From the IMG/VR virus record IMGVR_UViG_3300044825_001963, positions 1 through 36,780 of that record: a stretch of 36,780 nucleotides of DNA; one strand, written 5' to 3'. The DNA is from a virus. Made by a program: the position numbers and the translations under genes. Shown one piece after another: positions 6,553-36,321 of the stretch. Numbering within the stretch: position 1 is the first letter of the stretch; each line of letters begins with the position of its first letter. A model generated the notes under the pieces. It was not told the DNA's origin, made no database searches, and saw only the letters and a list, made by a program, of their open reading frames with translations.

Positions 6553-7788
6553 ATGAACCTCGTAAAAGCAGCAGACGACATCAAGAACCTCTCTGATCAG
6601 CAGCTACTCTCTGCTGGTCAGAACCCTGTTATGGTCCCTCCGTATCTGGTGCTTGCCGAGATGAAGCGCCGGGAACAACTGAGGGCGCAGTACGCGAAGT
6701 CTCAACAGCAGCAGCAACAGCCGTCTGTAGCGCAGCAGGTAGCGCAGAATCTTACGCAGCCGCAGATGGGTCAGCCTCAGCAGGCCGCTCCGCAGCAACC
6801 TCCTCCTCAGGGGATTATGCAGGCAGCGCCTCCTCAGGCTATGGCAATGGCGCAGGGTGGGCATGTTGCGCGGTATGCGGAGGGAGACCTCATCACAGAT
6901 CGCGCCGAGTACATGCAGCAATTTCGACAGGGAGAAAGAACCCCGCAGGATTTTGGCGCTATCGCTGAGCAGATGCTTGGCAAGCCCGACTACTCCAAGT
7001 ACGAGGAGCTTCTTCGTCGCCAACGCCAGACGGCTGAATCAAAGAAGCCAAGCATTGGGGATGCCCTGATTGCCGCTGGTGCTGCCATTGCTGGCAATCG
7101 TGACCCCCGGGTTGGCCTAGCCAGTCTTATGGCTCAGGGTATTGGAGTTGGGTCGCAGACGTACAAGGCGGCGAAGGAGCAGCGGGAGAAGGATATCAAC
7201 GCCGCAATGATGGCAGAGATGTCTCTTGAACGAATGCGCCAGCAGGATCAAGAGAAGAAGGCTGGCATGATGTTCAACCTCATGCAGATGGACTCCGGTC
7301 AGCTTCAGACTATTGCCAACAATCTCGGCGCAAACGCTCGCACCATGTTTGAAGCTGCCAAGAATGCTGAAAGCAGACAGAAGCAAATGGAGTACGAGAC
7401 TAAGGCTCGTGAAGCGCAGCAGGCTTTCCAGATGGCGCAACAGGCTGCTGAGATCAAGTTCAAGAAGGAAGAAGGGGTTCTGAATAGAGCGGCTGACCTG
7501 AGCAGGGCTGGGATTATGGCTGGCGCGAGAAGTGGATCCGGCGCTGGCAGGGTTGACCCCGCACGGGCGGCTGCTCTCAATGCGGCAAAGGCCCAGGCTA
7601 CCAGCATTCAGAATCAGATCAACACTCTGACGAACATGATGAAAGCCGCCTCCCGCAAAGACAAGTCCTTCTATCAGCAAGAGATCCAAAAGAAGATGCG
7701 CGAGTTGGACAACATTCAAAGCGCCTTCCCTGCGATTGGTCAGATTGAAGTTGTTGATATGTTTGGCGGCTCTGATGCGGAACAATAA
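6553..7788 (+). CDS. Q-rich coiled-coil virion protein, probable internal protein
   Basis: 411 residues from ATG 6553, 12 nt after the previous stop, with a TAGG ribosome site. An N-terminal module (LSDQQLLSAGQNPVMVPPYL then AEMKRREQLRAQ) matches a family of phage structural proteins known from memory. A Gln/Pro-rich linker covers about residues 50-105, an AQGGHVARYAEGD element follows at about 106, and a charged helical region with coiled-coil character extends to about 330. It sits between two large virion proteins in the same operon. The probable role is an injected core protein analogous in position to T7 gp14/gp15; the analogy is positional, not by sequence. Confidence 0.7.
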   Translation: MNLVKAADDIKNLSDQQLLSAGQNPVMVPPYLVLAEMKRREQLRAQYAKSQQQQQQPSVAQQVAQNLTQPQMGQPQQAAPQQPPPQGIMQAAPPQAMAMAQGGHVARYAEGDLITDRAEYMQQFRQGERTPQDFGAIAEQMLGKPDYSKYEELLRRQRQTAESKKPSIGDALIAAGAAIAGNRDPRVGLASLMAQGIGVGSQTYKAAKEQREKDINAAMMAEMSLERMRQQDQEKKAGMMFNLMQMDSGQLQTIANNLGANARTMFEAAKNAESRQKQMEYETKAREAQQAFQMAQQAAEIKFKKEEGVLNRAADLSRAGIMAGARSGSGAGRVDPARAAALNAAKAQATSIQNQINTLTNMMKAASRKDKSFYQQEIQKKMRELDNIQSAFPAIGQIEVVDMFGGSDAEQ

Positions 7789-16790: not shown

Positions 16791-17598
16791 TCACTGTCTC
16801 CTTTGTGAATTCAGGTGTGAACTTGGCGTACACCTTCTCGGTTATAACGCTACTGGAATGACCCAGCAACTTGCTGACTCTCAGTATCGGCACGCCAGAG
16901 CTAACAAGGTTCGTTGCCACGCTGTGCCGGATGATGTGCGGCGTGATTGTAGTTGGCAGGCCAGCGGCGACCATCAGCTTGCGCCACTGATAGTTCAATG
17001 ACATCGGCCTCCTGCCGTTCTGGGCGACGACCAACTTGTCTCCGTCGAGAACTCGGTGCGCCATCATGTATTCGTACAAGTCGTCGTTCATCGCCACATC
17101 AGCCACGCACTTCTGCCGAGACTTCCTGTTGGCGCTGAAGTAGATGCAACGACCATCCAGGTCTACGTCCTTCCAGCGGAGAGAGATGACCGCACCGGAT
17201 CTCTGCCCAGTATTGCAGAGCAGCATGCAGTACATCTCCATCCACTGTCCAAACTTGTGAGCTTCATTCAGCACCAAGCCCATCTGATCCCATGTGATCC
17301 ACTGCTTTCTCGGCGCGGATTCCTTAGGTAGTTCGATGTACGGCTTGTTCGTGATCTGACCGCACTTCCATGCAGTGTTGATAGCGGCGATCAATGCCTG
17401 AAGATCTCTACGGATCGTTGAGGACGACAACTTCGCCAACCCCTTGGTGGCCTCTCGAATAACGGAAGGCCGGAGGTTGTCTACGAGGATGCCGTCGAGT
17501 GCTTTCAGGTGCCGATGCGCTAGCTCCTGTCTTTTCCAGAAGAGAATGTCGTCGCTACATTCTCTCCTGTACAACTCCCAAACATCTCCCACTAGCAT
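16747..17598 (-). CDS. Tyrosine recombinase / phage integrase
   Basis: 283 residues from ATG 17598, AGGAG 7 nt upstream. N-terminal core-binding SAM-like domain about 1-90, catalytic domain about 100-275. Catalytic set visible: R133 (TGQRSGAVISLRW), K159 (NRKSRQK), H221 and R224 (HIIRHS), H247 (LGHSS), Y257 nucleophile (EKVYAKF). This makes it a site-specific recombinase able to integrate or resolve DNA. The short N-terminus lacks an obvious arm-binding domain, which is seen in some phage integrases and in XerC/D-like resolvases. It lies inside the replication operon rather than at a genome edge, so a role in dimer or concatemer resolution is an alternative to lysogeny. No attachment site could be identified. 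Confidence 0.93.
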   Translation of the reverse strand: MLVGDVWELYRRECSDDILFWKRQELAHRHLKALDGILVDNLRPSVIREATKGLAKLSSSTIRRDLQALIAAINTAWKCGQITNKPYIELPKESAPRKQWITWDQMGLVLNEAHKFGQWMEMYCMLLCNTGQRSGAVISLRWKDVDLDGRCIYFSANRKSRQKCVADVAMNDDLYEYMMAHRVLDGDKLVVAQNGRRPMSLNYQWRKLMVAAGLPTTITPHIIRHSVATNLVSSGVPILRVSKLLGHSSSVITEKVYAKFTPEFTKETVNAIRINGNSDRPRA

Positions 17599-18437
17599 TG
17601 CACAACTCCTGGAACTTCGATCTTGTGTGCGTGTCCAAGGATTGCAATCGGATACGGCTGCGGGGGTTCGACTCCGAACTCATGCTTGTACGCTACAGCG
17701 TGCCAGTGAGACAGGAACATCTTCACGGCGTACCGCTCGGCGCGTTGCTCGATGTGAGCAGGAGGCAGCATGCCGATACTGTATGCCTTGTAGGCATCGG
17801 TATCCTTGCCAATCTTGAACTTCTCCAACTTGGCGATGGCTTGATCGATGAACGCGCCAGCCTCGTTGCGCTCCATCTCCAGGCGCTTGCGCTCTGAGTA
17901 GATGTGACCATAGAAGCACTTGTCGCTCTTGTGGAACTTCATAAAGCTCTGCCCGATCTTCCAGCACAGAACCTTGAGCTTGGCGTTGAATGGGCGCCTC
18001 TCGCCCTTTTTCCACTCCATGCGCGGGTCCAGCCCGGCGAAGGACCAGATATGACCTACGGTCGGAGCCTTGCGGATATCGATGTGCGCCAGTAAACCGG
18101 CGCTAATGACAGGGCCAATCCCATGCTGCGACTTCGCCCACACGCTAACCGGGCTGACATCGGTCCACCAATCCAGCGCGCGCTTGATTTGACCTTCCAT
18201 GGTTTCATGCTGAGTGAACAACCACTTCAGCACCTCACATGGCTCATCGACCCCTCCCTTACTCACGCTGCGGACTTGGCTAGCCGCTGCGATCCGGTAG
18301 TCCTGGATGGTGTAGTATGCGTCCACCAGGAACCGGGCTTCGTCCCGAGACATGGACCTGACCCCTTTCTTGATGTCGCTCGTCAGCCGATTGACGGCTT
18401 CCATGGATACGATTGAAGGAACTTCTTGCTGAATCAT
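17592..18437 (-). CDS. Orphan IS110/IS116-type transposase C-terminal (Transposase_20-like) domain protein
   Basis: 281 residues. ATG at 18437 is chosen over ATG 18443 because AGGAG is 7 nt from it but only 1 nt from the earlier one. Around residues 107-165 it has the helix-hairpin-helix-like signature of IS110-family C-terminal domains: GIGPVISAGLLAHI, then WSFAGLDPRMEWKKG. The N-terminal DEDD RuvC-like half of true IS110 transposases is absent, and the G-x-S type serine region expected after GLDP reads EWKKGERRPFN, so the recombination serine seems missing. The flanks carry no insertion-sequence ends. Probably a phage DNA-binding protein working with the neighbouring recombinase or RuvC-like nuclease; this is inference. 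Confidence 0.75.
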   Translation of the reverse strand: MIQQEVPSIVSMEAVNRLTSDIKKGVRSMSRDEARFLVDAYYTIQDYRIAAASQVRSVSKGGVDEPCEVLKWLFTQHETMEGQIKRALDWWTDVSPVSVWAKSQHGIGPVISAGLLAHIDIRKAPTVGHIWSFAGLDPRMEWKKGERRPFNAKLKVLCWKIGQSFMKFHKSDKCFYGHIYSERKRLEMERNEAGAFIDQAIAKLEKFKIGKDTDAYKAYSIGMLPPAHIEQRAERYAVKMFLSHWHAVAYKHEFGVEPPQPYPIAILGHAHKIEVPGVVQC

Positions 18438-18526
18438 TTGCATTCTCCTGTGTTGGCTTTCGCTTTCTTCGTTGGTGTATTCACTGCTTGTGGCTCACTC
18501 GTTTTTCGTGTGTTGTCTTCGTTCAT
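18434..18526 (-). CDS. Possible 30-residue basic leader peptide gene
   Basis: ATG at 18526 opens a 30-codon frame rich in Lys/Thr/Glu (starts MNEDNTRKTSE, ends NTGECK). Its TGA overlaps the ATG at 18437 of the next gene in the classic ATGA arrangement, which is the main support. The ribosome site is weak (GAGAG). It may be a small coupled peptide or simply a leader. Confidence 0.3.
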   Translation of the reverse strand: MNEDNTRKTSEPQAVNTPTKKAKANTGECK

Positions 18527-20753: not shown

Positions 20754-22502
20754 ATGCGACCAACACCGGAACTGCGGGAGCTAGCAGAGCAGTTCGTGGA
20801 GAGTGGGCGTGGATCATTGAGAACCACATGCCCAGAGTGCAGTCCAAACAGAAGGCACCACAACGCACACGAACCTGTATTGTCATGGAGCCAGGGAGAC
20901 AGGGGTCCAGTCTTCTATTGTCACCACTGCGGGATTAAAGGAGCCGTTAATAACATGAATCTCGAAGACTTTGATTCTTTATTCAACAACCAACCAAGTC
21001 AACTAGAGTTGTCCCTGCCTGAGCCCGGGGAGGGCGGCATCCGGTTGCAACTAGACCACATCGACTACCTGAAGCGGCGCGGCATCTCAATCGAGACAGC
21101 CACGAAGGCGGAACTGTTTTCTGTGCGGAAGTTCTTCCGACAAGGGGGCGACCTGGACTGTATCGCGTTCCCCTACTTCGATACTGATGGCGTGCTCGTG
21201 TCTTCCAAGTACCGTGCAACTACGGTAAAGACCTTCTCGCAGGATGCCGGGGCTGGGGGCCTGCTGTTTGGATTGAAGCAGGAGTTCGATCCGCGAGAGC
21301 CGCTCGTCATCTGTGAGGGGGAGATGGACGCCGTCTCTGTGTGTGAGGCGGGGATCAAGAACTGGGTGAGTGTTCCCTCCGGCGCTCCCGGCAAGGGGGA
21401 GAAGAACAACTCCCAAAGATTTAGTTGGATCTCCGAATTGGAGGAGTTCCTGGGGAAGTTTAAGTCCTTCGTGCTGGCTACCGACAACGATGGACCCGGC
21501 AAAGCCTTGCAGGAAGAGCTCGGGCGCAGGTTGGGTCGGTCCAAGTGCAGCACTGTTAAGTACCCAGATGGCTGCAAGGATGCGAACGATGTTCTTGTAA
21601 AGCATGGAATCTCCGTGTTGGCGAATGTGATTTACGGTGCGAAGCCAATGCCTATGACATCTCTCTATAGCGCCGATCACTACTTCGATCAGGTCATGGA
21701 CCTGTTCACTAAAGGCGACGGCAAGGGCGAGAGCACTGGCTTTTCTGGCGTGGACGAATTGTACACCGTTGCGCGAGGGCAGATGACGGTGGTGACTGGT
21801 ATTCCTTCAAGCGGGAAGAGCAACTTCCTGGACCAGATCATGGTGAATCTGGCGCGGAATCAGGGCTGGAGGTTTGCGATAGCCAGCATGGAGAACGAAC
21901 CTGCCAAGCATATCGCCAAGCTGTCTGAGATGTACGTACGCAAACCCTTCTTCCAGCAGTGGCCTGGGTGCATGACCCTGGACGAAGCCAGAGGAGCGCA
22001 TGCTTGGTGCCAGGATCACTTCAACTTCATCGACTTCAGCACGTCGAAGGATCTGCCCACGCTGGACAGCTTGCTGGATAGAGCGAACGCTGCCGTCCTT
22101 AGATTCGGTATCGACGGATTGGTTATTGATCCGTACAACTGTATCGAGATCGGCAGAAGCAAAGAGTTGAACGAGACGGAAGCTGTCAGCAATATGCTGT
22201 CGCGCATCTCTGCCTTCGCGAAGGCGTCGAACATTCACGTCTGGTTCGTCGCGCACCCGCAGAAGATGCAGCGGGAGTTCTCGTCGAGCAACACCGTCCC
22301 GGGTGGGTATGACATCTCAGGATCGGCGCATTGGTTCAACAAGACTGACGTAGGCCTGACCGTACACCGCAAGGATATGGACGGGTACGTCGAGGTTCAC
22401 TGCTGGAAGTGCAGGTTCAAGTGGGTAGGGCGGCAGGGGATGACGCGCCTGAAGTACGACATCCCCACCAGCACCTACTACGAACTACCGAAGGAGACCT
22501 AA
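20754..22502 (+). CDS. Bifunctional DNA primase-helicase (T7 gp4-like)
   Basis: 582 residues from ATG 20754. Alternative GTG starts extend up to 13 codons, but none has a better ribosome site. It makes RNA primers and unwinds DNA at the fork. Domains: zinc-binding C26-x2-C29...C56-x2-C59 (TCPEC, FYCHHCG); TOPRIM with EGEMDAVSV (about 187) and ATDNDGPG; RecA/DnaB-type helicase with Walker A GIPSSGKSN (about 349-357), Walker B DGLVIDPYN, and FVAHPQKM with later SGSAHWFNKTD motifs. The length fits the T7-like fusion. It lies alone rightward between two leftward blocks, and its stop overlaps the convergent gene by 4 bp. Confidence 0.95.
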   Translation: MRPTPELRELAEQFVESGRGSLRTTCPECSPNRRHHNAHEPVLSWSQGDRGPVFYCHHCGIKGAVNNMNLEDFDSLFNNQPSQLELSLPEPGEGGIRLQLDHIDYLKRRGISIETATKAELFSVRKFFRQGGDLDCIAFPYFDTDGVLVSSKYRATTVKTFSQDAGAGGLLFGLKQEFDPREPLVICEGEMDAVSVCEAGIKNWVSVPSGAPGKGEKNNSQRFSWISELEEFLGKFKSFVLATDNDGPGKALQEELGRRLGRSKCSTVKYPDGCKDANDVLVKHGISVLANVIYGAKPMPMTSLYSADHYFDQVMDLFTKGDGKGESTGFSGVDELYTVARGQMTVVTGIPSSGKSNFLDQIMVNLARNQGWRFAIASMENEPAKHIAKLSEMYVRKPFFQQWPGCMTLDEARGAHAWCQDHFNFIDFSTSKDLPTLDSLLDRANAAVLRFGIDGLVIDPYNCIEIGRSKELNETEAVSNMLSRISAFAKASNIHVWFVAHPQKMQREFSSSNTVPGGYDISGSAHWFNKTDVGLTVHRKDMDGYVEVHCWKCRFKWVGRQGMTRLKYDIPTSTYYELPKET

Positions 22503-23569
22503 GACGTTGCCAGCATGCGTGCGAGGGCCTTGGTCTTGGTGGTGGCGATCAGGTCTTCGCACTTCATTCTGGCGCGGAGTAGCAGGTTGCTCGTACCGCT
22601 TTCAGAAATCAAGCACACGGCTCTCTTTGATGCGCCTCTTGAATTGGTTTCCATCCGCTCGTCAACGCAGATATACCCGTAGAGATTCAGGTTCCTGTTG
22701 AGCAGCCTGATGCAGTACGTTTCACCAATCACCTCCTCGATCACGGCGCAGAAGCAGTTATTGATGCCGAACACAGGGATCACGTTGTCGTCGTTGATGT
22801 CGATCCCCTTCAGGCTGATCTCCTTGGTTACCGCGCCGCTCTTGTTGTACACGTTGATCTGCTGCTTGTCGTAGAAGTACGTCCACCCATCACGACTGCT
22901 GTTGTGTGTCGGTGCGCCGTCCCTCGAAAGAGATCCGCAGGACTGGTGCCACGCGCTGACGAACGAGCCGAGCTTCCACGGTTTGCTGCTCGTGCCTTTG
23001 GTGGTGCGGAGGTACATGCGCTCCCGGGTGGAGAATTGATCCTTGCGAAGGATGTGGGTGGGGGAGGTGTTGTAATCCTTGAAGAAGGATGGTTTACGAA
23101 ACCCGTATTCCGAAGCCTTTCTGTACGGATACTCTCCCAATCTGTACGGATACTCTCCCAAGATCTGGCTGTACTTTGCACTGAAGCGACCGCACTCCTG
23201 GAGAAAGGATTCCCGAGAGATAGACAGGCCAGACGAGAAGCTGTACTTCAACTCGCCCAGGAACTCCTTCAGCGCGGTCATCCTGAAGTGAGGCAGGGAG
23301 GACGGGACTGTCTCCAGGAATCGATTTACGATGGCGCGGTATGCCAAACGAGCAAGCACGACACTGGACCCTTCGGCATGCTTGATTGAGAGAATCACAA
23401 AGCTCTCCGGCGGGACCGTGTAAACCACCCGCACCCGGGTGATCTTGTCGGTAAAGTAGTAGTACTGCACCGACCGAGGGGAGGGGGTGCCGGAGACGAC
23501 AACCCCCTGGATAGTGGGGTCGTACCACTCGACCCCTTCCGCCATCATCTTCCTGAAATCGATCTTCAT
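22499..23569 (-). CDS. Unknown 356-residue protein with internal tandem repeat
   Basis: ATG 23569 with AAGGAG right before it; 11 nt after the previous gene. Mixed alpha/beta, rich in Arg/Tyr/Ser; N-terminal half has KMMAEGVEWYDP and YYYFTDKITRVRVVYTVP, the C-terminal half KEISLKGIDINDDNVIPVFG and a basic helical tail. The heptad LGEYPYR occurs twice in tandem, encoded by a perfect 21-bp duplication (23120-23161). No family recognised. It is the last gene of the leftward AAA+/VWA operon, which suggests a partner of that module. Confidence 0.75.
   Translation of the reverse strand: MKIDFRKMMAEGVEWYDPTIQGVVVSGTPSPRSVQYYYFTDKITRVRVVYTVPPESFVILSIKHAEGSSVVLARLAYRAIVNRFLETVPSSLPHFRMTALKEFLGELKYSFSSGLSISRESFLQECGRFSAKYSQILGEYPYRLGEYPYRKASEYGFRKPSFFKDYNTSPTHILRKDQFSTRERMYLRTTKGTSSKPWKLGSFVSAWHQSCGSLSRDGAPTHNSSRDGWTYFYDKQQINVYNKSGAVTKEISLKGIDINDDNVIPVFGINNCFCAVIEEVIGETYCIRLLNRNLNLYGYICVDERMETNSRGASKRAVCLISESGTSNLLLRARMKCEDLIATTKTKALARMLATS
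23120..23161 (-). repeat. Perfect 21-bp tandem duplication inside a gene
   Basis: The 21-base unit (starting TCTGTACGGATACTC) occurs twice head to tail with no mismatch, adding seven codons in frame to the 356-residue protein. Identity at silent positions points to a recent slippage event. Confidence 0.9.
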
Positions 23570-31117: not shown

Positions 31118-31681
31118 ATGGGACAGCCAAGTTTGAAAGAGATTACGTCGAAGCTAACAGCGAGGCAGAGGAAGTTTGCAGAGGGTCTAGTGTACGGTGG
31201 GCTGTCGAAAGCAGAGGCTTACAGACAAGCGTACAAGTGGGATGGTAAGAGCCAGAATGGGCTGAGGGTGAACGCGACCAGGTACGCGCAAAAGCCTAAT
31301 GTGAAGCTAGCGATTGAAATGATGGAGCAGGAAAAGACCGCGCGATGGTGGGCGGACAAGGGCAAGCTGCAAACATTCGTCATGGATGGCCTGACCAAGA
31401 CGGCCAGTGAGACGGAATCAGACATCACGCGGATCAAGGCAATGGAGTTGCTGGGAAGGACGCGGTATTGCTCCATCTTCGAGAATCCCCAAGCAAACGA
31501 AGCCGAATCAGCCGTAGCGGGATCTCTAGTAGACCTAATAGGCGCGCGCCTGCAATCCCTTCTATCGTTTGAATCGCCTAATCTGGGCGATGAAGAAACA
31601 GTGGACACGACATGCGACCACCTACCACTTGATACCACCACGTCTACCGACACCCCCACCGGGGGCGGGGAGGGGGATTAG
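31118..31681 (+). CDS. terS: Terminase small subunit
   Basis: 187 residues from ATG 31118, GGGGG upstream. TerS recognises the phage packaging site and loads the large subunit. N-terminal LTARQRKFAEGLVYGGLSKA then AEAYRQAYKWDGK, with NATRYAQKPNVKLAIEMM, is the helix-turn-helix opening of the Terminase_2-type small subunit; a helical oligomerisation region follows and a Thr/Gly-rich tail. The C-terminal codons form a G/C-rich hairpin. No large subunit gene follows directly; it may be beyond the window. Confidence 0.85.
   Translation: MGQPSLKEITSKLTARQRKFAEGLVYGGLSKAEAYRQAYKWDGKSQNGLRVNATRYAQKPNVKLAIEMMEQEKTARWWADKGKLQTFVMDGLTKTASETESDITRIKAMELLGRTRYCSIFENPQANEAESAVAGSLVDLIGARLQSLLSFESPNLGDEETVDTTCDHLPLDTTTSTDTPTGGGEGD
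31653..31679 (+). other. G-rich hairpin tract at the end of terS
   Basis: CCCCC (31653-31657), ACC, then GGGGG (31661-31665), followed by CGGGGAGGGGGA. It can form a short C5/G5 stem and has long G runs; it encodes the Thr-Gly-Gly-Gly tail of TerS. It immediately precedes the C-rich spacer. Confidence 0.5.
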
Positions 31682-31789
31682 GCCGGGTCGCGCTGGCTGT
31701 GCTATGCATAGTATTCCGCTCATTCCATCACCCCTTCAAAATCCATTCACCCATCCCCCATGCCCTCCCTTCCCACCACCCTTCACCTA

Positions 31790-31806
31790 GCGTATCTACG
31801 ATACGC
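31790..31806 (+). repeat. GCGTATC hairpin, variant of the array repeat
   Basis: GCGTATC and GATACGC around TAC, a perfect 7-bp stem, resembling the GCGTAGC/GCTACGC stems downstream but with a different loop and without the TAGACACC flank. Confidence 0.6.
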
Positions 31807-31938
31807 ACAGCCATCCCATCCACCACCCTACTCGATGTCTGTCACACCCCCCACCCCTTTATTCCTGCGCCACATTCTTCTCTCCACCTCTCCAATAGGA
31901 AACACCCCCACCTTCTATTTTGGTACCATCTCTACATG

Positions 31939-31992
31939 GCGTAGCCTTCGCTACGCATAGACACCACAACTTCTTTATGCTACGGTGTCTAT
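31939..31992 (+). repeat. Array repeat copy 1 (hairpin plus inverted ATAGACACC arms)
   Basis: GCGTAGC-CTTC-GCTACGC (31939-31956), immediately followed by ATAGACACC (31957-31965), an 18-nt spacer, then GGTGTCTAT (31984-31992), its exact inverse complement. The right arm ends 8 nt before the first paralogue gene's ATG. Confidence 0.8.
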
Positions 31993-32000
31993 AGGGATCC

Positions 32001-32258
32001 ATGATCGAAAGCGCGGTAATCAAAACGCCACTTCTTCGCCTAATGTCTGCCAATGCAGCATACTCAACTGCCTACCTCGCTTGGGGGAGTATGGTCGTAG
32101 AACACCTGGACACATACTTTGGATCGGCTAGGTTCAATTCGATCCGACCCACAAAAGGACCAGAGGCTCGCCAGTTCGCCTTGAGAGTCTACGAAGACCA
32201 AGACAGGGATACGCAGAGAAGGCTCCTGACCATAATGAAGCATGCTGGTCTGGCTTGA
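32001..32258 (+). CDS. Array paralogue 1
   Basis: 85 residues from ATG 32001 (weak AGGG upstream). The C-terminal helix EARQFALRVYEDQDRDTQRR, then LLTIMKHAG, fits the shared [E/Q]-x-[I/L]-LR-[V/L]-Y-[D/E] motif of this array; the N-terminal half is diverged. Unknown function. Preceded by a full array repeat. Confidence 0.6.
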   Translation: MIESAVIKTPLLRLMSANAAYSTAYLAWGSMVVEHLDTYFGSARFNSIRPTKGPEARQFALRVYEDQDRDTQRRLLTIMKHAGLA

Positions 32259-32264
32259 AGGCCA

Positions 32265-32330
32265 GTAGACACATAGCGTAGCCTTCGCTACGCATAGACA
32301 CCATCCAATCCACCGTGCTATGGTGTATAT
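32265..32330 (+). repeat. Array repeat copy 2
   Basis: GTAGACAC leads into GCGTAGC-CTTC-GCTACGC (32276-32293), ATAGACACC (32294-32302), a 19-nt spacer, and GGTGTATAT (32322-32330; one mismatch to the inverse arm). It ends 11 nt before the second paralogue's ATG, which has GGGGG as its ribosome site. Confidence 0.8.
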
Positions 32331-32341
32331 AGGGGGAATCA

Positions 32342-32635
32342 ATGGAGACCGATTTAAGCAGCATCGATAGCGAATGGGGCAACATCGTCTCAACATCTTT
32401 ATACTCTGCGCCGATCAAGCACAGCGGGAGTGAGCATCTATCGATAGGGATCATTGAAGGCGCTGGCGCAGAAATATGGACATTTGATTGGGAGAGGCCA
32501 GTTCCCTACGCGCACATGGAGAACCTCATCCGGCGCGTGTACCCTCACGAGTCAAAGCGAACTCAATATCAAATGGACAAGATGCTTAAAAGGATCGACG
32601 AAAATAGGCGACGAACTTCAGGCCTAGCCCAGTAG
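32342..32635 (+). CDS. Array paralogue 2
   Basis: 97 residues from ATG 32342, GGGGG 5 nt upstream. Mid-protein beta region LSIGIIEGAGAEIWTFDWE aligns with the G-x-[V/I]-x-x-x-G pattern of the array; the C-terminal helix is MENLIRRVYPHESKRTQYQM then DKMLKRI. Unknown function. Followed by array repeat copy 3. Confidence 0.65.
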   Translation: METDLSSIDSEWGNIVSTSLYSAPIKHSGSEHLSIGIIEGAGAEIWTFDWERPVPYAHMENLIRRVYPHESKRTQYQMDKMLKRIDENRRRTSGLAQ

Positions 32636-32669
32636 ACACCCAGCGTAGCTTCCGCTACGCATAGACACC
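32633..32669 (+). repeat. Array repeat copy 3 (lacks the right arm)
   Basis: GTAGACACcc then GCGTAGC-TTCC-GCTACGC (32643-32660) and ATAGACACC (32661-32669). The GGTGTCTAT arm is missing; instead a C-rich, G-poor spacer (about 32670-32790) with another TAGACACCC follows. Confidence 0.75.
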
Positions 32670-32792
32670 CCCACCTCCTCATGTGACTCCCTCACTGCTC
32701 ACCAATCCATCTCTCCAATAGACACCCACCCCCTTTATCCCGGTCCCATACACACGGCGCATTAATCTCCACACAGCGCCACACTTGACAAC

Positions 32793-33086
32793 ATGTGCTA
32801 CCATAGCACTAGGTATACAACAGTGCCAACCGAATACAGCGCGGACGTAGTCCTGAACTCCCCACTGCTAGGGTACACAACAACCGGAGACCCGCTCATA
32901 TATATATGGACCGAGGATCGGGTTCTACTATGCCACTCGCCACGCCCATTCCACAACGCCTGGGACAACAGGCCGCGCCCCCAGTCCGAGATTCGCCAAC
33001 TCCTCCTTCGCACTCTCGATCACCTCGGCCCTCACATCGGCGCGAACAGAGCGGTAGCCGAGTCCATATTGAGAGACACGGAATGA
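32793..33086 (+). CDS. Array paralogue 3
   Basis: 97 residues from ATG 32793, without a ribosome site; GTG at codon 11 is an alternative. TTGACA (32785-32790) and a GTGCTA-CCA-TAGCAC hairpin (32795-32809) surround the start. C-terminal SEIRQLLLRTLDHLGPHIGA is the array motif (compare PEVRQILLRVYD). The stop overlaps the next ATG (ATGA at 33083). Start uncertain. Confidence 0.55.
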   Translation: MCYHSTRYTTVPTEYSADVVLNSPLLGYTTTGDPLIYIWTEDRVLLCHSPRPFHNAWDNRPRPQSEIRQLLLRTLDHLGPHIGANRAVAESILRDTE

Positions 33087-33343
33087 GCCTGATCTTCGAG
33101 TCCGCTATGTCCATGTCTGATCTGTTCCTCTACGTCTCCAGGCACGCTGAAGACTGCGCCTCATACTTCGGCATAGATGAAAAGGGCGCATGGCTGTCTG
33201 TCGGAGAGTTTGATATTGAAAGGTTGAGTGACAAAGAGATGCGCCAGATAATCCTCAGGCTCTACGACAAGGAGGATAAAGGGAAGCAGCTCCGCATGCG
33301 GCGCATACTGAAGGCGATGAAGGAGACGGCCGATGGCGTTTAA
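33083..33343 (+). CDS. Array paralogue 4
   Basis: 86 residues from ATG 33083, coupled to the previous stop; a longer frame start at 32906 lies inside paralogue 3 and is rejected. FGIDEKGAWLSVGEF, then EMRQIILRLYDKEDKGKQLR and MRRILKAM, is the clearest copy of the array pattern: beta-turn GxWLS and the RQIILRLYD helix. Confidence 0.75.
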   Translation: MSLIFESAMSMSDLFLYVSRHAEDCASYFGIDEKGAWLSVGEFDIERLSDKEMRQIILRLYDKEDKGKQLRMRRILKAMKETADGV

Positions 33344-33566
33344 GCGCGTACTATTCGCGAGGTACTCTCCCGTTCGTCACGCTGGATTTGGCTGGGACTC
33401 GATTGTCGTGTACTTGCACGCAGACGGCGCACTGACAGAAGGAACGGCTGTGTTTTCTTGGCAGAGAGATCACTCCCTCCTGAAGCACACCCTGCTCCGC
33501 GTATACGACAGCCAGCAAGACAAGGAGAAGAGGATGATCGACCTCATGCTTGAGGAGGTGCTGTGA
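33333..33566 (+). CDS. Array paralogue 5
   Basis: 77 residues from ATG 33333, AAGGAG 7 nt upstream. VVYLHADGALTEGTAVFSW then LLKHTLLRVYDSQQDKEKRM and IDLMLEEVL. Shares the LLRVYDxQ helix with paralogue 6 even at DNA level (CTGCTCCGCGTATACGAC versus CTACTCCGCGTGTACGAC). Confidence 0.75.
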   Translation: MAFKRVLFARYSPVRHAGFGWDSIVVYLHADGALTEGTAVFSWQRDHSLLKHTLLRVYDSQQDKEKRMIDLMLEEVL

Positions 33567-33805
33567 AGCGCCCCACAAACTCCACCGTCGCCTTCACCGT
33601 CAGATCCAAGCTCTTTATCTATTCAGGCTGCATAGACGAAAAGCGTTTAGTCCACCGATCAACCGGAGCCCTCCAATTCCTGTCTGTACGCCTTACCGGC
33701 GCGAGATGCTACCCCGAAGTCAGGCAGATACTACTCCGCGTGTACGACCACCAGACGCCACACGCTCAATTTATGATCGAAGGCGTGCTCGATAAACACC
33801 CATAA
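33563..33805 (+). CDS. Array paralogue 6
   Basis: 80 residues from GTG 33563 with GAGGAGG 4 nt upstream, overlapping the previous stop. C-terminal PEVRQILLRVYDHQTPHAQF then MIEGVLDKHP. The N-terminal KLFIYSGCIDEKRLVHRSTG is the diverged half. Confidence 0.75.
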   Translation: MKRPTNSTVAFTVRSKLFIYSGCIDEKRLVHRSTGALQFLSVRLTGARCYPEVRQILLRVYDHQTPHAQFMIEGVLDKHP

Positions 33806-33814
33806 AGGCACACA

Positions 33815-34177
33815 GTGCGCGATCATCGTACTCCATTGACATTCCACCACCACAGGCGTACACTGTCTCTCGTGGGATACACTCAATCAGACAGGGACTA
33901 CTACCACAGAGCTGAGGCAAAGGGGCAGGCCGTTCATTACGCGGGGTACGCGGACGTGGCGGTAGGGGTAGATGAACTCGGCGCGTGGATAAGCTCCAGG
34001 GAAAAAGAAAGCGGGGAGTCTCGCGTTCGCTCTAGCGATGGAACCGGCCTAGACCCTCGCGAAGTCGAACAGGTCATTCTTCGCCTCTACAATCAGCAAG
34101 AAGCAAAGGAGCAAGCGAACATGTACAGCATCCTTAAGAAGCTCCCACTTCACATCGGCGCGAAGGAGAAGGGATGA
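33815..34177 (+). CDS. Array paralogue 7 (longest member)
   Basis: 120 residues from GTG 33815 with AAAGG 6 nt upstream. Core: YADVAVGVDELGAWISSRE, then a 15-residue insert, then REVEQVILRLYNQQEAKEQA. A fourfold His/Arg-rich N-terminal extension is unique to this copy. Confidence 0.75.
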   Translation: MRDHRTPLTFHHHRRTLSLVGYTQSDRDYYHRAEAKGQAVHYAGYADVAVGVDELGAWISSREKESGESRVRSSDGTGLDPREVEQVILRLYNQQEAKEQANMYSILKKLPLHIGAKEKG

Positions 34178-34425
34178 AGCGCATTCCCGATCGCACCCTA
34201 GGCGCGGTAATCACTTCGCCCAAGCTCAGGCTCTACACCCAGAGAATCGCCGTAGCTGTGGGAGTCAATCACGACGGCCCATTCCTCTCCCGGGAGCAAG
34301 GATACATCTGGCCGGAAGAGAAGCTGTACGAGAAGATGGTGGCCCAATTCATCCGGCGCATACTGGAAGACCAGCCACAGGATAAACGGAAGATCCTTGA
34401 AGGAGCACTGGATGCACTCAAATAA
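34174..34425 (+). CDS. Array paralogue 8
   Basis: 83 residues from ATG 34174 (AAGGAG 5 nt before, overlapping previous stop). IAVAVGVNHDGPFLSREQ then EKMVAQFIRRILEDQPQDKR. The central VGV...DGPFLS matches paralogues 4 and 7. Confidence 0.75.
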   Translation: MKRIPDRTLGAVITSPKLRLYTQRIAVAVGVNHDGPFLSREQGYIWPEEKLYEKMVAQFIRRILEDQPQDKRKILEGALDALK

Positions 34426-34690
34426 CACGACAGAGAACACGCTTGAAGCATGCGCCTTCTTGGAAATACCGTACCAAGGGGAGATGGGCGGAGATATTCA
34501 GCCAATGACCGCTGTTGGGTGGAACAAGTACGGTCTATTCCTGGTGGATCGGCGCGGCGTGTTCGACAAAGACTCTGACATAAGAACTGACGAGGTCGTC
34601 AATCTGATGCTGAGGGCTCGCGACCTCCAGGCTGATATAGACAGGGAAGCAATCGACAGGATATTAGAGAAGGTTTCACAGGGGGTGTAA
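34412..34690 (+). CDS. Array paralogue 9
   Basis: 92 residues from ATG 34412 (AAGGAG 6 nt before), overlapping the previous gene by 14 bp; an upstream TTG at 34397 is less likely. TAVGWNKYGLFLVDRRG then DEVVNLMLRARDLQADIDRE and AIDRILEKV. The Tyr of LRxYD is Ala here, so the copy is more diverged. Confidence 0.7.
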   Translation: MHSNNTTENTLEACAFLEIPYQGEMGGDIQPMTAVGWNKYGLFLVDRRGVFDKDSDIRTDEVVNLMLRARDLQADIDREAIDRILEKVSQGV

Positions 34691-34692
34691 TC

Positions 34693-34959
34693 GTGAGCAT
34701 GCAGCCTGGATGGATTGTCGTGAAAGACGATATAGGCAAGCTGAGGTTTGGGTGGGCGCTGGGTGGCTTTGAGCATATCGAGATATTCATCCACAGTGGC
34801 GGCAAGTCCTCTCTTGTTTGCCCGATTGGCACAAGAGATGGAGCGCCACACTACCTCAACGTACACACATGGGGACACATCTTTCATTTAATCAAGAGGC
34901 TGGATGCGGCAGGTTGTGTGGCGGTAGGGTTGTCTCAGGCTGCAAGGGAGTTTAGGTAA
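34693..34959 (+). CDS. Array protein 10, distant or unrelated
   Basis: 88 residues from GTG 34693 with AGGGGG 7 nt upstream (ATG 34699 also possible). HIEIFIHSGGKSSLVCPIG resembles the central beta region of the array; the C-terminal HIFHLIKRLDAAGC is only a weak match to the helix. Membership is doubtful. Confidence 0.65.
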   Translation: MSMQPGWIVVKDDIGKLRFGWALGGFEHIEIFIHSGGKSSLVCPIGTRDGAPHYLNVHTWGHIFHLIKRLDAAGCVAVGLSQAAREFR

Positions 34960-35237
34960 TGCCGACATATACCGGCGCGAAGGCAAAGCTTATCTGCTCG
35001 TACATGTTCAGCGAGCCGGACAGCCTGTTTGTCACGGTGTTCAATGGGAAGTTTTACATGGAGCCGGAGCTCAGTCTATTCACTCGTGATAATGCTTTGG
35101 AAATAGAATCCCCAGTGATCTCCGCGCACGCGATGAAGCGAATCAGGTCCAATCTAGGGACTGGTAATTATCAAAGCAAGTTCTTCGAGATCGAGATGAG
35201 GAAGATAGAGGAGGAAGCAGCGTGCCGGAGTACATAG
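34959..35237 (+). CDS. Array protein 11 (second subfamily)
   Basis: 92 residues from ATG 34959 (TAATG overlap, AGGGAG 8 nt before). MPTYTGAKAKLICSYMF, FVTVFNGKFYMEPE and AMKRIRSNLG. It pairs with protein 12: both start MPxYxG and share a CS...F-V-x-x-F-x-x-G pattern. Confidence 0.7.
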   Translation: MPTYTGAKAKLICSYMFSEPDSLFVTVFNGKFYMEPELSLFTRDNALEIESPVISAHAMKRIRSNLGTGNYQSKFFEIEMRKIEEEAACRST

Positions 35238-35503
35238 GAGAGTTCGCTGGGAAGGTGTGTTCTTGGGTATGGGGGGTTGGGCATGAGAAGGTGTTCGTGT
35301 CCATGTTTACTGACGGCGAAGTGATGATCGCTGCGGCTGAGGATTCATCTCTAAAGGACTGGGTGATCGTCAGGAAGAGGGAGGGGAACCACGCCGATTA
35401 CAGACTACAGTCCAGCGCCGATATAAAGGATCCCGGTGGAATGGAGATAATTGAGGTTGGCGCTGATTTGACCATATCAACGCAGTACGAAAGGAAGGAA
35501 TGA
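35222..35503 (+). CDS. Array protein 12 (second subfamily)
   Basis: 93 residues from GTG 35222 with AGGAGG 7 nt upstream. MPEYIGEFAGKVCSWVWG, VFVSMFTDGEVMIAAAEDSS mirrors protein 11. The C-terminal half (IEVGADLTISTQYERKE) differs. Stop overlaps the thyX ATG. Confidence 0.7.
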   Translation: MPEYIGEFAGKVCSWVWGVGHEKVFVSMFTDGEVMIAAAEDSSLKDWVIVRKREGNHADYRLQSSADIKDPGGMEIIEVGADLTISTQYERKE

Positions 35504-36321
35504 ATTTGAATAAGATATCTGCAAAGATCGTAGCTGACTCTGTATCGCCGCTTGGCGTCAGGTTGATCACTATGGAATGTACGTTCCCACGGTTCATCCT
35601 GGCGCAGATGAATACGCATCGCCAGTTCTCTAGGAACTCGGCGTCCTCCCGCGCCATACCAATCTCCAAGCGCATTGCTGAAGTAGAGACGGATCCCTAT
35701 ATCCCCATTCACTTCGGCGCGAATCAACCCGGGATGCAGGCTGGTCCGGTTGTCAGTGTGCAGCAGCGGTGGGAAGCGGAGAATATCTGGCGCAATGCGG
35801 CGGCTAACGCGGCGCATTCTGCCAAGAGAATGGCTAACTCTGGTATCCACAAGGAAGTGGTGAACAGGCTACTGGAGCCGTTTCTCTGGCACAAAGCCAT
35901 CATCACGGCGACCGAGTGGGAGAACTTCTTTGAGCAGCGCCTGGGTGACGGAGCCCAGCCGGAGATCAGGGATCTGGCGCGCGCTATGCGCGATGCGATT
36001 GATTCCAGTGCGCCGCAATCTGTGTACTGGGGTGACTACCACCTGCCGTACATCACGCCGGAGGAGCTCAAGGCGTACAGCAAGTACCGTTGTATGGCGC
36101 TGTCAGTAGCCAGATGCGCCCGTGTGTCGTATCTAAATCACGACGGAACGTATAGCTTGGAGAAGGACATGGCGCTGTTTGAGAAATTGAAGGGCGCTAT
36201 GCCTCCCCATCTCTCTCCATTCGAGCATGTAGCCACGCCGTCTAAGGAGCCTTGCGCCGGGAATCTTCATTTGTGGAAGCAGTTTCGGCATATGTTGGAA
36301 GAGATTGGCGGCGCGGAGTAA
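35500..36321 (+). CDS. thyX: ThyX-type flavin-dependent thymidylate synthase (divergent)
   Basis: 273 residues from ATG 35500, AAAGG 5 nt upstream, overlapping the previous stop. ThyX makes dTMP from dUMP using FAD and folate. The signature reads THRQFSRNSASSRA where the usual pattern is RHRxxSxNExSxRY; a similar THRxFSRNxASSRAIP form is familiar from other phages. YWGDYHLPYITPEE and ARVSYLNHDGTYS, with SPFEHVATP, fit the phage ThyX lineage. It pairs with the dUTPase at 14922-15371. FAD binding is not proven from the motif variant. Confidence 0.88.
   Translation: MNLNKISAKIVADSVSPLGVRLITMECTFPRFILAQMNTHRQFSRNSASSRAIPISKRIAEVETDPYIPIHFGANQPGMQAGPVVSVQQRWEAENIWRNAAANAAHSAKRMANSGIHKEVVNRLLEPFLWHKAIITATEWENFFEQRLGDGAQPEIRDLARAMRDAIDSSAPQSVYWGDYHLPYITPEELKAYSKYRCMALSVARCARVSYLNHDGTYSLEKDMALFEKLKGAMPPHLSPFEHVATPSKEPCAGNLHLWKQFRHMLEEIGGAE

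Follow-up and report, generated by a model that had tools for sequence, protein, structure and literature searches.

The window analysed here, a linear IMG/VR virus record of 36,780 bases that is possibly a fragment, carries a tandem array of small genes, nine of which (g1–g9) are diverged paralogues of one another. Their products constitute a new protein family in an arrangement of a known kind. The original prediction of a dozen small genes is borne out by twelve same-strand open reading frames between 32001 and 35503, with products of 77–120 aa. It had also described the genes as overlapping by ATGA, which is true of g3/g4, g7/g8 and g12/thyX only and of no other pair, the g5/g6 overlap being GTGA. 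The spacers between g1 and g2 and between g2 and g3 (83 and 157 nt, respectively) contain a repeated leader. The array and its borders are listed below; E-values for g1–g9 are from the leave-out profiles described in the next section.

31118–31681 (+): terminase small subunit gene, TerS (PHROG 51, 5e-8), upstream border of the array
31939–31993 (+): leader 1, with the hairpin GCGTAGC-CTTC-GCTACGC, the inverted repeat ATAGACACC...GGTGTCTAT and TATAGGG; precedes g1
32001–32258 (+): g1, family member, 85 aa; E 3.8e-12; AF2 pLDDT 84
32276–32333 (+): leader 2; precedes g2
32342–32635 (+): g2, family member, 97 aa; E 2.2e-7
32643–32669 (+): decayed leader copy with no adjoining gene start
32793–33086 (+): g3, family member, 97 aa; E 5.2e-5; orthologues in L001 and L005
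33083–33343 (+): g4, family member, 86 aa; E 7.6e-12
33333–33566 (+): g5, family member, 77 aa; E 7e-6; another copy alongside in L005
33563–33805 (+): g6, family member, 80 aa, GTG start; E 6.4e-9
33815–34177 (+): g7, family member, 120 aa, GTG start; E 3.7e-8
34174–34425 (+): g8, family member, 83 aa; E 1.8e-9
34412–34690 (+): g9, family member, 92 aa; E 2.1e-6
34693–34959 (+): g10, small gene with a hypervariable middle; no family membership detected
34959–35237 (+): g11, small gene, first 30 aa g12-like; no family membership detected
35222–35503 (+): g12, small gene; no family membership detected
35500–36321 (+): thyX (PHROG 85, 6e-78), downstream border of the array

The segment from 31118 to 36321 thus consists of the terminase small subunit gene, the array and thyX, with the array running from g12 into thyX (35500–36321) without a break. 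In the related contig L005, ThyX is followed by the terminase large subunit (TerL) and then by another structural-type gene, so that the array sits between two terminase genes. The rest of the window encodes tail and internal virion genes, then a minus-strand block (endolysin, dUTPase, resolvase, tyrosine integrase, a transposase-like gene, an Erf-type annealing protein and an exonuclease), and then primase/helicase and a MoxR-type ATPase; a tRNA search of the window found none. The closest isolates by TerL, at 57–46% identity, are phage 023Pt_psg01, Pelagibacter phage HTVC027P, phage DSL-LC04 and Planktothrix phage Pag-Yong1, and cyanophages are among the best matches of primase and integrase.

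A family of nine diverged paralogues

All-against-all BLASTP connects g1–g8, with E-values of 3e-9 for g4–g7 (the lowest), 8e-6 for g1–g4, 2e-5 for g2–g4, 5e-5 for g1–g6 and 1e-4 for g3–g6. A leave-one-lineage-out test, in which each profile was built without the whole lineage of the tested gene and the database size was set to 1000, recovered g1–g9 at E-values of 4e-12 to 5e-5. Every lineage scored between 19.6 and 46.8 bits, compared with 3.9–10.1 bits for the best of 500 shuffles per tested gene, and all 18 of the 18 lineages left out were recognised by profiles of the others. Significant profile matches were therefore obtained for all nine genes. As g10, g11, g12 and an extra L005 gene at 3931 scored at shuffle level, the "at least nine" paralogues first proposed become, by sequence, exactly nine of the twelve. 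The first 30 residues of g11 and g12 (window 34959–35311) are alike (33% identity, E 1e-3), with both genes outside the array family.

The C-terminal helix motif and central turn reported earlier are present as quoted, and the N-termini are indeed the more variable part, with identity between lineages of 14% there versus 25% in the helical part. AlphaFold2 models made with the family alignment, for g1 (pLDDT 84.1, pTM 0.75) and for the L001 member at 6833–7084 (pLDDT 89.9, pTM 0.78), both predict a strand, a short helix and three strands followed by a hairpin of two helices. The two models agree on one small fold; because both rest on a shared alignment, they do not independently prove it for every member.

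The absence of a recognisable family also stands for the libraries searched, with no credible match in Pfam, PHROG, NCBIfam, PADLOC or the PDB. Foldseek against BFVD and the PDB gave no match with E <= 0.001, and a VIA-align structural search gave no neighbour at Z 5 or more. Matches to phrog_1509 (0.017) and phrog_8503 (0.011), each in one or two members, and to Manatee Spring and Pseudanabaena phages (E 0.9–7) were judged to be chance. The PADLOC library, which holds defence proteins and not inhibitors, gave a single match at 0.011. No array member resembles a known anti-defence protein, and none has a credible match among the toxin-immunity families of Pfam or NCBIfam.

One structural likeness deserved closer attention. 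PipX, the NtcA coactivator of cyanobacteria, which has a Tudor-like sheet and two helices, is similar to the array proteins in size and in the way strands and two C-terminal helices are predicted to follow one another, and it is among the structural neighbours of both models, with most of its length covered (VIA-align Z 3.4 and 4.0). The Z of 4.0, over 62–63 residues at an rmsd of 2.7–2.8, is tied with unrelated folds such as PTB and PH domains and lies at noise level, and no sequence relation was detectable. The PipX model PF12058 matched nothing in the window at E-values of 10 or less, although it detected its control in Synechococcus elongatus; profile–profile comparison scored 10.7 against a shuffle mean of 10.2, which 58 of 150 column shuffles equalled or exceeded, and with a subset profile 61 of 200 shuffles equalled or exceeded the score. 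A few of the 50 single-pair comparisons tried reached a z of 4–5, but searching those proteins against PDB sequences did not recover PipX. Homology with PipX, hinted at by structure, was dropped on the evidence of the family profile, the profile–profile comparison and the PDB sequence searches.

It is conceivable that the array encodes host-takeover regulators that bind host transcription or metabolic regulators, of which mimics of PipX (about 89 aa, with a sheet and two C-terminal helices) would be the extreme case. The structural neighbourhood of both models and the cyanophage matches of primase and integrase point this way. With the PipX Z in the noise, PF12058 absent, the profile–profile score at shuffle level and TerL closer to phages of Pelagibacter and Gammaproteobacteria, such a role must be considered very unlikely.

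Distribution of the array and turnover of its genes

Seven scans of viral contigs with different queries, each requiring short near-exact peptide or DNA matches and so liable to miss distant members, placed the family in four IMG/VR contigs only, namely the window, L001, L005 and L017. A fourth relative belongs to the same phage group.

IMGVR 3300042691_023734 (L001): array carried
IMGVR 3300047548_001684 (L005): array carried
IMGVR 3300035703_002295 (L017): array carried, but interrupted where the contig ends
IMGVR 3300005805_007649 (L012): same phage group; contig stops before the array

The search for like arrays in other phages was thus successful for L001, L005 and L017. In four related phages that share the terminase type and have related tail genes, profile searches of the whole records found no family members, and a pattern scan of genome contigs gave none either. 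A search of 386 cyanobacterial genomes likewise found none, a result of little weight if the host belongs to some other group. The genome sample is small and wholly metagenomic.

The arrays comprise 9 members in the window, 12 in L001 and 14 in L005 (including a copy with an in-frame stop and a truncated g9), for a total of 19 lineages across the three near-complete arrays. Seven genes, g3–g9, are common to all three, with their order kept. L001 is without g1 and g2, having four other members in their place and one between g5 and g6. The front of the L005 array holds three other members plus one copy with an in-frame TAG, and additional members occur before g4, after g5 and after g9, which is itself truncated. 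In a tree, the g3–g9 orthologues group across phages, and many of the remaining lineages lie on long branches, where placement is unsure. The L005 copy with the single in-frame TAG (953–1183, +) is 96% identical in DNA to an intact L001 copy, and the stop may represent decay, error or stop readthrough.

Lying on the structural strand with TerS on one side and TerL on the other, the array could encode small proteins of the virion or of packaging, such as decoration proteins or DNA-packaging accessories. Such a function is highly improbable, however, given that four phages whose terminase and tail genes are related lack the family, that virion parts do not usually show varying copy number and mosaicism, and that thyX lies in the same region.

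Most array comparisons gave dN/dS values of 0.16–0.76, with a single value of 0.94 for g8 that has few changes behind it, and those for g10–g12 were 0.17–0.40. For comparison, ThyX gave 0.02 (against L005) and TerS 0.12. All whole-gene comparisons of the array fell below 1, and these values indicate proteins that are constrained yet changing fast. A duplicated family between terminase genes could instead be dispensable cargo, drifting under relaxed selection since it is hardly important; the in-frame TAG copy and truncated g9 of L005 and the decayed third leader of the window would agree with this. We regard it as rather unlikely, as dN/dS is below 1 throughout the whole-gene comparisons, the motif is kept in every lineage and seven genes hold a constant order in three phages.

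Change within the shared genes is patchy. Identity switches between 100% and 50–60% within tens of bases, and 30-nt blocks of 100% identity lie next to blocks of 50–60% within g4, g7, g8 and g10. The N halves of g4 and g8 have dS of 0 and 0.03 between the window and L001, versus 0.86–0.89 against L005, and in the C halves L005 is closer to the other two than it is in the N halves. As judged from these alignments, the pattern in g4 and g8 is the trace expected from recombination or replacement of segments. In g5, g6 and g9 the helical part varies too, so that variation extends beyond the sheet.

The serial duplication and fast divergence first proposed are in keeping with the cross-recognition of 18 lineages, with gene content that varies among close relatives and with dN/dS well in excess of the ThyX and TerS values. 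Strict accordion-like amplification, with recent identical copies, was not seen: the closest paralogues inside one genome are 42–43% identical in protein, and paralogue DNA matches apart from the leaders are only short, at about 75–78% over 53–104 nt. The changes seen are duplication of older date, an apparent gain or loss of cassettes at leader repeats, and mosaicism within genes.

Leader repeats

The leader, of about 60 nt, is composed of the GCGTAGC-CTTC-GCTACGC hairpin, ATAGACACC and GGTGTCTAT about 18 nt apart, TATAGG and the start codon. It precedes g1, g2 and the first genes of L001, L005 and L017, and not g3–g12, and its copies are nearly identical though the genes behind them differ. 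A sigma-70-like site across leader 2 (TAGACA-18-TATGGT with TG, 32295–32324) is a candidate promoter; promoter-like sites in the region number 6 against 4.1 expected, which is near chance. Two of four leader copies form much better RNA folds than shuffled sequences do (z -4.8 and -4.5), and an Rfam search of the leader region returned nothing. We infer a regulatory role for the leader.

L001 and L017 share the arrangement leader–member a–leader–member b, whereas in L005 a leader of the first type lies directly 5′ of member b, with the contig starting just upstream of it. Recombination between leaders that removed a, or a duplication that added it, would explain the difference. The final codons of member a in L001 (QAYLRYA) lie within the beginning of the following leader repeat (6770–6791), and this C-terminus may therefore owe its form to leader insertion or recombination.

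Proposed function and further features of the window

Several known systems resemble the array in pattern. AcrID1, a proven anti-defence protein, has several paralogues per viral genome (PMC11065993), and in the AcrID1 paralogues and early anti-defence clusters of Sulfolobales rudiviruses, as in the array, diverged small paralogues are grouped; the regulatory sequences shared upstream of small genes there (PMC11065993) may have a counterpart in the leader before g1 and g2. Those clusters belong to archaeal viruses and have proven anti-CRISPR function, whereas the array is likened to them by pattern and not by sequence. Recombination alters the copy number of a small accessory gene in the tifA and SegB-driven segmental amplifications of T4 as well (PMC9391042, PMC13096335), but there the copies are recent, identical and made under laboratory selection, while those of the array are old and at most 43% identical.

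In homogeneous polyimmunity loci, distant paralogues follow one another closely on a single strand with no toxin genes in between, and the content varies from strain to strain (PMC3482391). Much like these loci, of which the SUKH arrays are an example (PMC3482391), the array is tandem, one-stranded and short-spaced, its diverged paralogues have no effector genes between them, and its content varies among close relatives. The known loci are found in bacterial chromosomes and encode other protein families; the array is carried by a phage and encodes a fold without a recognised match. The array could thus be a phage-borne polyimmunity or antitoxin locus, in which every protein would counter a single version of a toxin family (derived from host abortive-infection modules or from competitors) and not an active defence complex. 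The anatomy is that of the published homogeneous loci (PMC3482391), and T4 TifA exemplifies the use and amplification of an anti-toxin gene by a phage (PMC9391042). This role is nevertheless unlikely, as no member matches a Pfam immunity family, the extended polyimmunity loci described so far are bacterial, and a cognate toxin family was not identified.

We tentatively favour, at a little under even confidence, a homogeneous and fast-turning array of phage-specific small binding proteins kept as a repertoire against varying host targets, because of the likeness to the AcrID1-family and polyimmunity patterns together with fast but constrained evolution. Counter-defence or host takeover is probably the likeliest use, a plausible one in view of the evolutionary pattern: fast-changing patchwork genes would be expected where proteins must track shifting host targets such as anti-phage defences. 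Rapid change is compatible with immunity, antitoxin or regulatory roles too. Under the repertoire reading, each protein would be a small binding domain that contacts its target through the more variable N-terminal sheet, with the better conserved helical hairpin holding the fold or a common partner. Many versions would be kept because host targets, most likely those of anti-phage defence or takeover, vary among host strains, and new ones would arise by duplication and divergence, by gain or loss of leader-repeat cassettes and by recombination within genes. A bolder and somewhat unlikely version is that a new fold family gives the phage a stock of inhibitors that can be exchanged for one another, the viral equivalent of polyimmunity loci in bacteria; target specificities would be swapped through cassettes carried with the leaders and through mosaic segments at the N-terminus. 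If the repertoire reading is right, about nineteen natural versions of one small phage protein are at hand, and their targets could be read by pairing versions with host strains. The array would then parallel the polyimmunity loci of bacteria and supply, in compact form, candidate counter-defence proteins invisible to homology searches.

Three further features of the window lie outside the array. The transposase-like gene at 17592–18443 (−; phrog_4285, 2e-49) adjoins the tyrosine integrase gene, and no plasmid relative was found. The region at 22499–23569 (−) encodes a 356-aa product with no PHROG match and a short internal repeat, GEYPYRLGEYPYR. Finally, the spacer 3′ of the terminase gene (31699–31990) is C-rich and contains an extra hairpin, GCGTATC-TAC-GATACGC, near 31790.
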